A stretch of DNA of 64,000 nt from Parvularcula sp. LCG005. Its GTDB lineage: Bacteria > Pseudomonadota > Alphaproteobacteria > Caulobacterales > Parvularculaceae. This document shows positions 35,261 through 41,882 of the stretch, one piece after another. Location of the stretch: positions 1 through 64,000 of the forward strand of contig NZ_CP136758.1 of the NCBI RefSeq assembly GCF_032930845.1, in the 5' to 3' direction. Made by a program: the position numbers and the translations under genes. The first letter of the stretch is position 1, and the number at the start of each line of letters is the position of its first letter. The notes under the pieces were generated by a model, which saw nothing but the letters and a program-made list of their open reading frames with translations, did not search any database and was not told where the DNA came from.

Positions 35261-36836
<1,576 letters not shown>

Positions 36837-36838
36837 TC

Positions 36839-37873
36839 ATGTCGGAAACATTGAGCAACACACGCAATATCAGCATGATCGACGCCCTGCGCGAAGCGCA
36901 TGATGTCATGCTGCAGCGGGATGAAGACGTCATCGTTTTCGGTGAGGATGTGGGTTATTTTGGCGGCGTCTTTCGCGTGACCCATGGCCTGCAGAAGAAG
37001 TTCGGGTCGCAGCGCGTATTCGATGCCCCGATCAATGAGGGCGGCATCGTTGGCGCGGCCATTGGCATGGCGGCCTATGGCCTGAAACCTTGCGTGGAAA
37101 TTCAGTTTGCCGACTATATCTTCCCCGCCTATGACCAGATCACGCAGGAGATGGCGCGCATCCGGTATCGGTCAAATCACCAGTTCTCCTGTCCGGTGGT
37201 CATCCGTACCCCAACTGGCGGCGGCATTTTTGGCGGCCAGACCCATAGTCAGAGCCCGGAAGCCTGTTTCACCCATGTCTCGGGTGTGAAAGTGGTCATG
37301 CCGTCGACCCCTTATGATGCTAAGGGCATGCTGATTTCGGCGATTGAAGATCCGGACCCGGTCATCTTTTTTGAGCCCAAACGGCTTTATAATGGCCCGT
37401 TCGACGGGCATCATGACAAGCCGGTCAAGCCGTGGTCGAAGCACCCTGACGGACATGTGCCGGAAGGCTATTATACCGTGCCACTTGGAAAGGCGGATGT
37501 TCGCCGTGAAGGCAGCGACGTGACCGTCATCGCCTATGGCACCATGGTCTATGTGGCGCTGGCCGCAGCGGAAGAAGCCGGTATCGATGCTGAAGTGATA
37601 GACCTGCGCAGCCTCATCCCGCTCGATCTCGAAACGCTGGTGGAGAGCGTTCAGAAGACCGGCCGCTGCGTCATCATCCATGAAGCCACCCAGACAGGCG
37701 GCTTTGCCGGTGAGTTGATGGCACTGATTCAGGAACGCGCGCTCTATCATCTGGAAGCGCCGATGGTTCGGGTGTGCGGCTGGGATACACCATATCCCCA
37801 CGCTCAGGAATGGGCTTACCTTCCGGGCCCGGATCGTGTCGTCCGGGCGCTCCGTGAAGTGATGGAGGCCTGA
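36839..37873 (+). CDS. bkdA2: 2-oxoisovalerate dehydrogenase E1 component beta subunit
   Basis: 344-residue partner of E1 alpha. It has the pyrimidine-binding transketolase domain (VFGEDVGYFGGVFRVTHGL, EGGIVGAAIGMAAYGLKP, PTGGGIFGGQTHSQSPE) and the C-terminal domain with EVIDLRSLIPLD and HEATQTGGFAGE. All are typical of BCKDH rather than pyruvate dehydrogenase. It lies 2 bases after E1 alpha and 2 before E2, so the three are cotranscribed and probably coupled. Confidence 0.95.
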   Translation: MSETLSNTRNISMIDALREAHDVMLQRDEDVIVFGEDVGYFGGVFRVTHGLQKKFGSQRVFDAPINEGGIVGAAIGMAAYGLKPCVEIQFADYIFPAYDQITQEMARIRYRSNHQFSCPVVIRTPTGGGIFGGQTHSQSPEACFTHVSGVKVVMPSTPYDAKGMLISAIEDPDPVIFFEPKRLYNGPFDGHHDKPVKPWSKHPDGHVPEGYYTVPLGKADVRREGSDVTVIAYGTMVYVALAAAEEAGIDAEVIDLRSLIPLDLETLVESVQKTGRCVIIHEATQTGGFAGELMALIQERALYHLEAPMVRVCGWDTPYPHAQEWAYLPGPDRVVRALREVMEA

Positions 37874-37875
37874 GC

Positions 37876-39396
37876 ATGGGCGTACACGTCATTAAGTTGC
37901 CCGATGTTGGCGAGGGAGTGGCCGAGGCTGAATTTGTCGAGGTGCACGTCAAGCCAGGCGATGTGGTCGAAATTGATCAGAACCTTGCCGACGTCATGAC
38001 CGACAAGGCGACGGTTGAAATCCCCAGCCCCCGCAAGGGTAAGGTGACATGGGTGGGCGCGGATGTCGGTGACATCGTTTCCGTCGGCTCCCCCATCATC
38101 AAGCTGGAGGTCGAGGGTGCTGGCAATTCGGCGGATGAGCCAGAGTCAACGCAGTCGGATGCGGGCGAAGATCGGACCGAAATCGATGATGCTGACGGTA
38201 CTGTAGACAAAGGTGTGGCGACTCGGCTCAAGCAAGCCCGTACGTCGGCCGGGTACCGAAGCGCCCGTGAGGCTGCATCCGATCGCGGCTGGACGTATAC
38301 GACTTATCAAAAGCACGAGAATGGCGAGAGGGGAATTTCGCGAGATGTCTCAGCGAAGTATGCGTCGGCATTTTCTGTACAGCCAGAGTGGTTGTTGTTC
38401 GGGCGAGGTGAGGGGCCTGATGAAAATATTAAAGAGTCGACCTCCGTTTCATCCAATCCATCTCGGTCTGCAAATGGCTCAGAATCTCTAGCAGTTCAGA
38501 CCCCAGCCGTACCACGCGCAGCCGGGGAGCGTCCGGTCGCTGCGCCAGCGGTCCGCGCCCGTGCCCGTGAACGGGGTGTGGATCTGGCCTTCGTGCACGG
38601 CACCGGCCCCGCCGGACGGATCACCCATGATGATCTTGATGTCTATGTCGCTGGCGGTGGCAGCGCACGCCGCCCCTCGCCGGGCGGTGTCGCGGATACC
38701 TCCATCGAAGAGGTCAAGATTATAGGCCTTCGCCGCAGGATCGGTGAGCGGATGCAGGACGCCAAACAGCGCATTCCGCACATCACCTATGTGGAAGAAA
38801 TCGACGTCACCGCGCTTGAAGACCTGCGCGCCCATATGAATACGGGGCGTGCGGATGACCAGCCAAAGCTGACGATGCTGCCATTCCTGATGCGGGCCAT
38901 GGTGCGGGCACGGGCCGACTTCCCACACCTTAATGCCCGATATGACGATGAAGCGGGCGTGGTGCATCGCCATGGCGGCGTGCATATTGGTATCGCAACG
39001 CAGACGGATAATGGTCTGATGGTGCCCGTTGTCCGACATGCCGAGGCACTGGACCTCTGGCAGTCTGCCGAAGAGGTCAGCCGTCTGGCCAAGGTGGCCC
39101 GCGACGGGTCGGCCAAGCGGGAAGAGCTGCAGGGTTCTACCATCACCATCACGTCGCTCGGTGCCCTTGGCGGCCTGGTATCCACGCCGGTGATCAACTC
39201 GCCAGAGGTCGCGATCGTTGGTGTGAACAAGATCCAGGTCCTGCCGCGATATGACGCCGACGGACGGGTGGTCCCGCGCAAGATCATGAACCTGTCATCG
39301 AGTTTCGATCATCGGATCGTGGATGGCTGGGATGCGGCGGCCTATGTGCAGAAGCTCAAGGGCTATCTGGAATATCCCGCTACGCTTTTTGTGTGA
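37876..39396 (+). CDS. bkdB: branched-chain dehydrogenase E2 with embedded XRE helix-turn-helix
   Basis: Dihydrolipoamide acyltransferase core of the complex, 506 residues against about 420-440 usual. In order: lipoyl domain (residues 3-79; lipoyl Lys44 in MTDKATVE), acidic linker, an unexpected domain at about 115-178, a Ser/Asn-rich stretch to about 209, the E1/E3-binding domain (about 222-258, RARARERGVDLAFVHGTGPA), and the catalytic domain ending DHRIVDG (His479, Asp483). The extra domain, RLKQARTSAGYRSAREAA with YQKHENGERGI and SVQPEWLLFG, is a Cro/CI-type DNA-binding fold as in phage repressors. By hand count only 110 of the 220 bases at 38281-38500 are G or C, well below the flanks. 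The frame stays open throughout. Enzyme identity is secure; DNA binding is inference. Confidence 0.93.
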   Translation: MGVHVIKLPDVGEGVAEAEFVEVHVKPGDVVEIDQNLADVMTDKATVEIPSPRKGKVTWVGADVGDIVSVGSPIIKLEVEGAGNSADEPESTQSDAGEDRTEIDDADGTVDKGVATRLKQARTSAGYRSAREAASDRGWTYTTYQKHENGERGISRDVSAKYASAFSVQPEWLLFGRGEGPDENIKESTSVSSNPSRSANGSESLAVQTPAVPRAAGERPVAAPAVRARARERGVDLAFVHGTGPAGRITHDDLDVYVAGGGSARRPSPGGVADTSIEEVKIIGLRRRIGERMQDAKQRIPHITYVEEIDVTALEDLRAHMNTGRADDQPKLTMLPFLMRAMVRARADFPHLNARYDDEAGVVHRHGGVHIGIATQTDNGLMVPVVRHAEALDLWQSAEEVSRLAKVARDGSAKREELQGSTITITSLGALGGLVSTPVINSPEVAIVGVNKIQVLPRYDADGRVVPRKIMNLSSSFDHRIVDGWDAAAYVQKLKGYLEYPATLFV

Positions 39397-40074: not shown

Positions 40075-40497
40075 ATGGCATACTGGCTCTTCAAATCTGA
40101 ACCGGCGACATGGTCATGGGACCAGCAGGTCGCCAAGGGCGTGGCAGGCGAAATCTGGAACGGCGTGCGCAATCACCAGGCCAAGAACTTCATGCAGGCG
40201 ATGAAGAAGGGCGATCGCGGATTCTTCTATCACTCCCAGACCGAGCGGGCCGTCGTGGGCATTGTCGAGGTGACGAAGGAGGCCGAGCCCGATCCCACAG
40301 CTGAACCGGACAGCCCCTGGGAATGCGTGACGGTCAAAGCGATTCAGCCCGTGGCCTCGCCCGTGACATTGAAAATGATCAAGGACGTGCCAGAGCTCGC
40401 CGAGATGGTGCTCGTGAAAAACTCGCGCCTGTCGGTGCAGCCGGTAGAGCCGGACGAATGGAAGCTCGTCTGCAAGATGGCCGGGGTGAAGCCGTGA
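40075..40497 (+). CDS. EVE domain-containing protein
   Basis: A 140-residue PUA-like EVE domain, probably a reader of modified bases in DNA or RNA. Features: YWLFKSEPATWSWDQ at the N-terminus, IWNGVRNHQAKNFMQAMKKGD, YHSQTERAVVGIVEV and SVQPVEPDEWKL. It is almost the whole EVE domain and nothing else. Its stop overlaps the GTG start of the E3 gene (GTGA), so translation is coupled. Why a base reader is joined to E3 is unclear. Confidence 0.92.
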   Translation: MAYWLFKSEPATWSWDQQVAKGVAGEIWNGVRNHQAKNFMQAMKKGDRGFFYHSQTERAVVGIVEVTKEAEPDPTAEPDSPWECVTVKAIQPVASPVTLKMIKDVPELAEMVLVKNSRLSVQPVEPDEWKLVCKMAGVKP

Positions 40498-41882
40498 GCC
40501 AGATTATGAATGTGAACACCCTCATCATCGGCGGCGGTCCGGGCGGTTATGTCGCCGGTATTCGGGCCGGGCAGCTGGGTATTGATACGCTGCTCGTGGA
40601 CAGCCAGCCCATGGGTGGCACCTGCCTTAATGTTGGATGCATCCCGTCAAAGGCACTCATCCATGCGGCGGACGAATTTGCCGGTATCGCGGCGCAGGCT
40701 GAGAAGAGCGCGCTTGGTATTACCGTCCAGCGCCCGTCGATTGATCTCGCTGCGACCATCGGCTGGAAAGACGGCATCGTGAAACGCCTCAATGGCGGCG
40801 TTGCCGGTCTGCTGAAAAAGGCGGGCACCATAACCCTGTCGGGCTGGGTAACCCTGCAGGACGGCAAGTCGGCCAAGGTCACGACAACAGACGGCGAGAT
40901 CCTCGTCAAAGCCCGTCACCTAATTCTTGCAACAGGTTCGGTCCCTCAGGCCATACCGGCCATACCGTTCGGCCCGGACGTCTGGTCATCAACCGATGCG
41001 CTGTCATGCACGGCGGTGCCCAAGTCGCTGGCCATCATCGGCGGTGGTTATATCGGGCTAGAACTCGGGACGGCTTTTGCGAAGCTTGGATGTGCCGTCA
41101 CGATCGTTGAGGCGACGGGCAAGATCCTGCCGCAATATGACGACGACCTCACCGCACCTGTTCACAAACGACTGAAATCGCTGGGTATGACCGTCCTCCT
41201 CGATACCAGGGCGACATCGTTCAGCGCCGGCAAACTGTCAGTCGAGACAGCGGAAGCGTCGCAGGACATTTCTGCGGAAAAAGTGCTGGTGACCGTCGGA
41301 AGACGCCCGCGGACCGAGGGCTTCGGGCTGGACGGCCTGGACCTCGAAATGACCGGCCCCTTTGTGCGCGTGGATGATCGCTGCCGCACGTCGATGAGCG
41401 GCGTGTATGCGATCGGCGATCTGACGGGCAATCCGATGCTTGCCCACCGTGCCATGGCGCAGGGCGAAATGGTGGCCGAGATCCTGGCGGGTCATCCGGC
41501 GCGATGGGACCGGCGGGCCATACCGGAAATCTGCTTCACCGATCCCGAAATCGTTCAGGTTGGCCTGTCGGCCGCTGCTGCGAAGGCGGAGGGGTATGAC
41601 GTAGTCACCGGCAAATTTCCGATGGCAGCCAATGGCCGGTCCATGACCACCGAGGACGAGGCGGGTTTCGTGCAGGCCATCGCGCGCGCCGACAACCATC
41701 TTCTGGTGGGGCTCCAGGCCGTCGGGCGGGACGTGTCGGAGCTGTCCGCCGGGTTCACGCTGGCGCTCGAAATGGGGGCCCGGCTCGAAGACATCGCGGG
41801 CACCATTCACGCCCATCCGACTCGGTCAGAGGGCCTGCAGGAGGCGGCGCTGACCGCGCTCGGTAAGGCCCTGCATTTCTGA
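40494..41882 (+). CDS. lpd: dihydrolipoyl dehydrogenase (E3)
   Basis: FAD enzyme that reoxidises the lipoyl arm of 2-oxoacid dehydrogenases. The 462-residue protein has the FAD motif LIIGGGPGGYVAGIRAGQ, redox-active disulphide GGTCLNVGCIPSKAL, the NAD motif IIGGGYIGLELGTAFAKLG, and the dimer-domain IHAHPTRSEG (catalytic His-Glu). The GTG at 40494 overlaps the EVE stop; ATG 40506 is an alternative. It is the expected partner of the E1-E2 genes just upstream, although two small genes separate them. Confidence 0.95.
   Translation: MSQIMNVNTLIIGGGPGGYVAGIRAGQLGIDTLLVDSQPMGGTCLNVGCIPSKALIHAADEFAGIAAQAEKSALGITVQRPSIDLAATIGWKDGIVKRLNGGVAGLLKKAGTITLSGWVTLQDGKSAKVTTTDGEILVKARHLILATGSVPQAIPAIPFGPDVWSSTDALSCTAVPKSLAIIGGGYIGLELGTAFAKLGCAVTIVEATGKILPQYDDDLTAPVHKRLKSLGMTVLLDTRATSFSAGKLSVETAEASQDISAEKVLVTVGRRPRTEGFGLDGLDLEMTGPFVRVDDRCRTSMSGVYAIGDLTGNPMLAHRAMAQGEMVAEILAGHPARWDRRAIPEICFTDPEIVQVGLSAAAAKAEGYDVVTGKFPMAANGRSMTTEDEAGFVQAIARADNHLLVGLQAVGRDVSELSAGFTLALEMGARLEDIAGTIHAHPTRSEGLQEAALTALGKALHF

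Follow-up and report, generated by a model that had tools for sequence, protein, structure and literature searches.

A branched-chain 2-oxoacid dehydrogenase-type E2 encoded in the window (the whole 64,000-nucleotide stretch of Parvularcula sp. LCG005 DNA analysed here) carries a Cro/CI-type helix-turn-helix (HTH) domain in its linker. This domain very probably descends from a repressor lineage, and phylogenies are suggestive of a nearest found relative that also lies inside an enzyme, in the linker of the class II ribonucleotide reductase NrdJ of a Litoreibacter genome. The E2 insert therefore looks like one case of repressor-type HTHs residing in the linkers of core enzymes, and our tentative reading of the whole, which we place somewhat short of an even chance, is a branched-chain E2 whose linker HTH would bind foreign operator DNA. 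The features of the locus are as follows.

35436–36836, + strand: E1 alpha of the E2 operon (NCBIfam TIGR03181, under its cut-off); the real start is probably 35583
36839–37873, + strand: E1 beta (NCBIfam NF006667, under its cut-off)
37876–39396, + strand: branched-chain 2-oxoacid dehydrogenase-type E2 with inserted HTH, 506 aa (open reading frame and Pfam)
37888–38106, + strand: lipoyl domain, residues 5–77, with Lys44 (Pfam PF00364)
38122–38496, + strand: enlarged E2 linker enclosing the HTH, residues 83–207 (alignment with 29 other E2s)
38203–38409, + strand: Cro/CI-type HTH in the E2 linker (Pfam, repressor alignment, AlphaFold, Foldseek)
38410–38496, + strand: Ser/Asn-rich linker 3′ of the HTH, GC 0.46 (composition)
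38536–38637, + strand: E1/E3-binding domain, residues 221–254 (Pfam PF02817)
38704–39390, + strand: acyltransferase core 2-oxoacid_dh, residues 277–505, with DHRIVDG (Pfam PF00198)
40392–41882, + strand: dihydrolipoyl dehydrogenase, E3 (above the TIGR01350 cut-off)

The genes for E1 alpha, E1 beta and E3 adjoin the E2 gene, as judged from open reading frames and NCBIfam, and a small gene at 40075–40497 between E2 and E3 is one that we take to be EVE-like. The lipoyl, E1/E3-binding and acyltransferase domains of the E2 are all complete by sequence and Pfam, and the HTH lies in frame between the first two of them, at residues ~110–178. The original prediction had placed an XRE/Cro-type domain at 38218–38409, which corresponds exactly to residues 115–178, in an unbroken frame and with the lipoyl lysine and the catalytic His/Asp intact; the fold was confirmed by Pfam, repressor homology and AlphaFold, and the residues by Lys44 and the DHRIVDG motif. 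We have hardly any doubt about this domain anatomy, and the enzyme is predicted to be functional despite the insert. An ordinary branched-chain 2-oxoacid dehydrogenase E2 has the same three domains and neighbouring genes but lacks the extra ~65-aa HTH in the linker. Single-sequence structure prediction of the whole E2 reached a pLDDT of just 31.8, too low for a usable model.

Several lines of evidence bear on the identity of the insert. Pfam HTH_3 matches residues 118–173 of the whole E2 with an E-value of 9.4e-4 (19.6 bits, below the cut-off of 23), and the score of the insert is 22 bits in a 145-aa piece and 23.9 bits in the genome search. When the HTH was compared by tblastn with 50,697 phage records, 24 had a match at E ≤ 0.1, the first listed being a LexA-like protein of Microcystis phage Mwe-JY08 (50% identity, E = 1e-14); 31 of 72,556 plasmids also had a match, and PHROGs returned six repressor or regulator families (best 2.4e-8). 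The insert keeps the residue at each of the 16 invariant columns of its alignment with seven related repressors. A structure prediction of the region, which had been proposed as a check, gave a five-helix HTH fold for residues 96–215, with a pLDDT of ~91 across the HTH, from an alignment of 31 rows that included 30 of 32 retrieved relatives. The helices span residues 110–125, 130–137, 141–148, 156–166 and 170–175, and by its position in the model helix 141–148 would be the recognition helix. Foldseek searches with this model returned ImmR (TM by target 0.86), 434 Cro, P22 c2 and lambda repressor, none reaching an E-value of 0.001, and the solved chain closest by sequence is that of 434 repressor (E = 0.03). 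Taken together, the homology to phage proteins, the 16 invariant columns and the AlphaFold model place the HTH assignment beyond chance.

The free relatives of this HTH are phage, plasmid, viral-contig and chromosomal repressors, and it belongs to the Cro/CI-type TYxxHENG subfamily, its own motif being HENGER. The LexA-like protein of phage Mwe-JY08 and the repressor of Caulobacter phage DMCA have N-terminal HTHs that are 45–54% identical to that of the E2. Whereas the S24/LexA-like TYxxHENG repressors have an S24 peptidase half, Pfam detects no S24 family in the E2, in which the HTH lies mid-enzyme and is followed by the enzyme domains. The insert thus appears, on sequence grounds, to be the DNA-binding half of an S24/LexA-like phage repressor that is missing its S24 half.

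Base composition is a weak argument for transfer, because the low GC is found mostly in the linker behind the HTH and less in the HTH itself. It had been argued from a GC content of 50% at 38281–38500, together with a change in codon mix, that the domain was probably acquired by transfer; the count is correct (0.500), and the linker behind the HTH (38410–38496) is GC-poor, with a GC3 of 0.31 over residues 179–207, but the GC of the HTH itself (38218–38409) is 0.583, near the 0.592 and 0.628 of its flanks. The GC3 of residues 113–207 is 0.505, below 99.8% of equal windows in 58 ORFs of the window, a comparison that overstates how low it is because only ORFs with GC3 >0.62 were taken; against the same ORFs the HTH alone is below 94% of equal windows, and with so mildly low a value the transfer into the E2 need not be very recent. 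The Ser/Asn-rich linker is perhaps a remnant of the repressor's own linker. No direct repeats were found at both ends of the insert, and one imperfect 13-nt inverted pair (38150–38162/38275–38287), considered as an insertion trace, was taken as chance. A relative-rate test for faster evolution of the E2 since the insertion gave, for its binding and catalytic part, p-values from 0.001 to 0.70 depending on the outgroup, and E1 beta showed a similar rate tendency.

The insert is known from one genome among those sampled, and for this reason selection on it is not measurable. All 62 genomes of the family, including the window's, have an E2 match, and no HTH is present in the 39 other branched-chain-type E2s whose linker could be read, in agreement with the original prediction, which knew of no standard E2 with this layout. 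These 39 comprise 29 aligned loci, three more of the family and eight among twelve further loci mostly picked for long frames, minus L165, which starts inside the linker. Of the nine other genomes in the genus, eight encode a branched-chain-type E2, and none of these eight, all of which were read, contains an HTH. In the ninth (G050, a single contig) the best match to this type of E2 has an E-value of 2.6e-43 and is not of the branched-chain type, so that the dehydrogenase complex may be absent from it. The linkers of related E2s are Ala/Pro/Glu-rich and vary freely in length and sequence; the long frames of L157, L158 and L166 hold second lipoyl domains, and others are upstream extensions. 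Absence from all relatives had been named in advance as evidence against the insert, and absence is what we observe for the E2s read (0 of 39); we nevertheless do not hold the insert refuted, since it lies on a single contig in an intact frame and an HTH of the same kind occurs in the NrdJ of a Litoreibacter metagenome-assembled genome (MAG).

Searches for the domain elsewhere mostly recovered regulators. With the E2 HTH as query, 34 of 398 genomes of the order had a match at E ≤ 1e-4, and the 29 frames read besides the window's (4 of the 34 genomes lying outside this reading) appear to be free regulators, most of them having a second half that resembles S24. A scan of the insert and its surroundings against the genome contigs, in 595 stretches, gave no relative. 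The host genome has 12 HTH_3 matches over the cut-off, of which the E2 is the sole one in an ORF >221 aa (matches with E-values of 0.004–0.8 in larger ORFs were left out of the reading), and it contains no second copy of the E2 HTH.

When 84,980 species genomes were scanned with the patterns TY[AQ][GK]HENG and A[CA][ES][AD][FR]G[WF][KT]Y, which reach near kin only, 22 relatives of the E2 HTH emerged, 21 of which look like free regulators. The first listed (L061), from a Litoreibacter MAG (Rhodobacterales; Roseobacteraceae in NCBI), lies in frame inside an 858-aa frame, the remainder of which is NrdJ (Ribonuc_red_lgC, lgN and TSCPD). When this HTH was used as query against 385 genomes of the class, nine had a match at E ≤ 1e-5; the E2 insert of the window scored best (52%, 8e-18), with the free repressors ranking below it. 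In a tree of 78 HTHs (54 free, 23 from NrdJ and the one from E2) the E2 insert and the Litoreibacter NrdJ HTH (L097) form a clade with support of 99/96. The clade was recovered on trimmed columns with 51 free HTHs (99/95), and again with 57 free HTHs (99/91), a tree that includes six of eight fetched phage and plasmid repressors and whose bootstrap had not settled. Constraining the E2 insert to group with a free repressor was rejected in two of four trials (p = 0.017 and 0.040) and kept in the other two (p = 0.105 and 0.073). Given that these trees rest on 61–72 columns and that the free repressors were gathered with the E2 HTH or close kin as query, the kinship between the E2 and NrdJ domains is suggestive rather than proof; it points to an ability of enzyme linkers to acquire and retain repressor-type HTHs. 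Titles and abstract openings in the literature, in a search whose scope excluded bioRxiv preprints and most subscription journals, contained no description of an HTH in the linkers of E2 or NrdJ, nor of repressor domains residing in this way in metabolic enzymes.

The linker of NrdJ in the Litoreibacter family offers a broader view of such domains. An NrdJ query matched 145 of 149 genomes of the family, 12 of them weakly (E-values of 5e-11 to 3e-8), and 133 genomes have a clear NrdJ. We read 44 NrdJ loci: 30 were those best matched by a query that carries an HTH, and the other 14 have open frames of at least 809 aa. In 22 of the 44, from 22 genomes, an HTH of ~65 aa lies directly behind TTYRPN.VTGSVL (loci L097–L116, L141 and L150). 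The proportion of carriers is thus at least 22 of 133 genomes, and 22 of 44 should not be read as a frequency. The frame is unbroken at the HTH site in 21 of these 22 genes, and L141 has two HTHs in tandem, each joining a different type in the tree. Of the 24 linker HTHs (E2 and 23 from NrdJ), 21 match HTH_3 and five match Phage_CI_repr at E ≤ 0.01. Occurrence at the same site in several species therefore holds for NrdJ, against 0 of 39 for E2.

Over the 190 pairs of 20 NrdJ loci, the enzyme cores are 83% identical at the median and the HTHs 28%, and the two identities are uncorrelated (Spearman −0.01). Some pairs have cores that are 87–89% identical and HTHs that are 17–21% identical, while others, sharing one HTH type, reach 55%. 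In eight of nine pairs of the same HTH type (pairs that share members), the HTH exceeds the core in synonymous divergence, as if the HTHs were not simply inherited with the gene. The ninth pair, L104/L113, looks inherited, with a dN/dS of 0.22 for the HTH against 0.13 for the core, and its HTH is under purifying selection. Gains of the HTH on the enzyme tree amount to nine changes, of which the starred branches force only one. In the 78-HTH tree, which holds no free kin of the other NrdJ HTH types and whose rows retained some shared linker, all NrdJ HTHs other than L097 lie together on the same side of a 100/96 branch; this could reflect one old HTH lineage diversifying inside NrdJ and not repeated capture. 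Among phages, the donor search gave none for L111, 39% identity at best for L098 and 48% for L114; among plasmids it gave 44% for L111 (one record), 46% for L102, 40% for L099 and none for L103. No donor of these other NrdJ types was identified among phages or plasmids, the free relatives being just 38–48% identical, with 39–48% for those obtained for four of five types tested. Exchange or diversification in place may explain the NrdJ HTHs except that of Litoreibacter, which is clearly separate from the others.

Outside the Litoreibacter family, no linker HTH was seen in NrdJ among the 150 of 385 class genomes with a match, as judged from match coordinates or, for 15, from the linker itself (15 of 15 without an HTH), with G415, G485 and G614 left unjudged; four NrdJ proteins there belong to the same group by identity (81–89%). 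Among the HTH matches listed in ten genomes of the family, the ORFs >800 aa are all at NrdJ places (ORFs of 430–499 aa and one of 594 aa were left out of this reading). A 635-aa ORF in these genomes, considered as another enzyme with an HTH, is a regulator with a long upstream frame.

To what DNA the E2 domain might bind can be estimated from its free relatives, upstream of which a palindrome stands out. Among free repressors with HENGxR, 11 of 16 have a TATGC-N5-GCATA-like site upstream, and all five with HENGSS have TATG(A/G)-N5-(T/C)CATA. Each of the 11 HENGxR sites scored at least 7.5 of 8.5 and was equalled by at most 12 of 300 single-base shuffles; the shuffles overstate the significance because the motif was read from the same sequences. 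The regulators L062–L082 (for example L067, L069, L074 and L078) point to TATGC-N5-GCATA as a possible operator of the TYAGHENG family, with a shift to TATGR-N5-YCATA where HENGSS replaces HENGxR. Of eight further phage and plasmid repressors, two (L219 and L220) have the C-type site; L215, with HENGAR, has TATGT...ACATG upstream and is an exception to the HENGxR rule; and the remaining five have nothing convincing upstream, including L222, the only one of the eight with HENGER like the E2 insert. L219, on the Rhizobium rhizoryzae plasmid NZ_CP049252.1, has an HTH half that is unlisted as a gene, with a separate S24 peptidase gene directly behind it. The half-site of the E2 HTH is perhaps TATGC (operator TATGC-N5-GCATA), a prediction made weak by the exceptions among the further repressors.

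The predicted operator was not found in the 250 bases upstream of the E2 operon (164 of 300 shuffles as good) or in the 300 bases upstream of the Litoreibacter nrdJ (265 of 300). Nor is it enriched, with 22 sites at up to two mismatches in the window against 18.8 expected, and 22 sites at up to one mismatch in the host genome against 28 for a reversed control; the one exact site in the host genome lies within a 337-aa frame. The original suggestion that the E2 acts on host genes is thus not supported by a predicted operator, which itself has exceptions, either before the operon or genome-wide.

The mechanism that we tentatively prefer has the DNA-binding half of a repressor sitting in the flexible linker of a working E2, where it would fold and still bind DNA, the multimeric E2 core replacing the S24 domain as oligomeriser. 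As the self-cleaving half is missing, the HTH would not be inducible by DNA damage, and by binding the operators of incoming phages and plasmids it could confer a host-borne, non-inducible immunity to superinfection. We prefer foreign-operator binding on account of the lack of host sites and of the self-cleaving half, and of the variation of the NrdJ HTHs on a nearly constant scaffold. The immunity role is, in our estimate, unlikely, and we could link no phage with matching operators to this host. More doubtful still is the general proposal that linkers of abundant core enzymes are landing sites for repressor HTHs from phages and plasmids, swapped as phages change, so as to form a protein-encoded phage memory in which the enzyme would provide abundance and multimerisation and the HTH the specificity of a phage for its own operators. 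Between species, the HTHs at the NrdJ site diverge widely on an almost constant enzyme, and a conserved scaffold bearing a rapidly changing recognition part is a typical mark of arms races. The operator exceptions L222 and L215 and the single NrdJ branch make both foreign-operator binding and phage memory less likely, and raise the standing of a tolerated passenger.

Such a passenger, a repressor fragment in an insert-tolerant linker in which the enzyme works and the HTH has no job, is a serious contender that we also place below an even chance, and for the E2 case alone it is as likely as foreign-operator binding. It would account for the single genome, the freely varying linkers of related E2s, the lack of host operators and the still deviating composition of the insert and rear linker. 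Speaking against it, the nearest relatives of the E2 HTH are only about half identical and yet 16 of 16 invariant repressor positions are retained, and the NrdJ HTHs occupy one site in 22 genomes, with 21 frames unbroken and one pair under purifying selection. If the linker HTHs bind phage operators, they would represent a new form of immunity; if they do not, they are a clear natural experiment on domains invading proteins. Rickettsia palindromic elements are likewise in-frame inserts in unrelated genes, but they are short palindromic repeats and not a folded domain with free-standing relatives.

It is improbable that the HTH lets the E2 regulate host genes by acyl or lipoyl state, in the manner of a trigger enzyme. 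Enzymes that acquired a DNA-binding domain are known, such as the trigger enzymes PutA, BirA and NadR (PMC8249747), and E2s of the pyruvate and branched-chain complexes were detected in mitochondrial nucleoids (PMC5478868). By analogy a regulatory role of the E2 HTH is thinkable, but it is unsupported by the present data: the predicted operator is absent from the upstream region and not enriched, and in NrdJ the HTH type differs between near relatives, as would not be expected of a fixed regulon. PutA, BirA and NadR resemble the E2, as far as its sequence goes, in joining an intact enzyme to an intact DNA-binding domain, but they are stable fusions with known host operators, whereas the E2 has an internal insert in one genome and no host operator was found. 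Their DNA-binding domain is in a terminal position. Enzyme/DNA-binding fusions are known as stable and regulatory; here the domain is mid-enzyme, and so is its nearest kin in another enzyme. The E2 and the Litoreibacter-family NrdJ are both core enzymes whose flexible linker contains an in-frame HTH of the repressor type, with many HTH types at one site in NrdJ and a single case in E2.

Very unlikely is an HTH lacking sequence specificity that anchors the enzyme at the nucleoid or has another protein as its partner: E2s occur in mitochondrial nucleoids without any HTH (PMC5478868), but the E2 HTH keeps the positions common to free repressors. An assembly or sequencing artefact, for which the single genome might speak, has a negligible chance given one 3.08-Mb contig (assembly 99.99% complete), the intact frame, the lack of a second HTH copy in the genome to have been joined in and the same architecture class in 22 NrdJ genes.

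Some NrdJ loci show further peculiarities of the linker. In L116/L169 (the NrdJ of G789) there is a frame break behind the linker HTH, and the gene continues in another frame. L113 has a run of Gly-Glu repeats (GEGEGEGEGE...) behind the HTH, where its relatives L104 and L141 have a short GEG. In L223 (the NrdJ of G675), the linker has tandem copies of a unit like PAPARERSPDINLPAPLFEA in place of the HTH.
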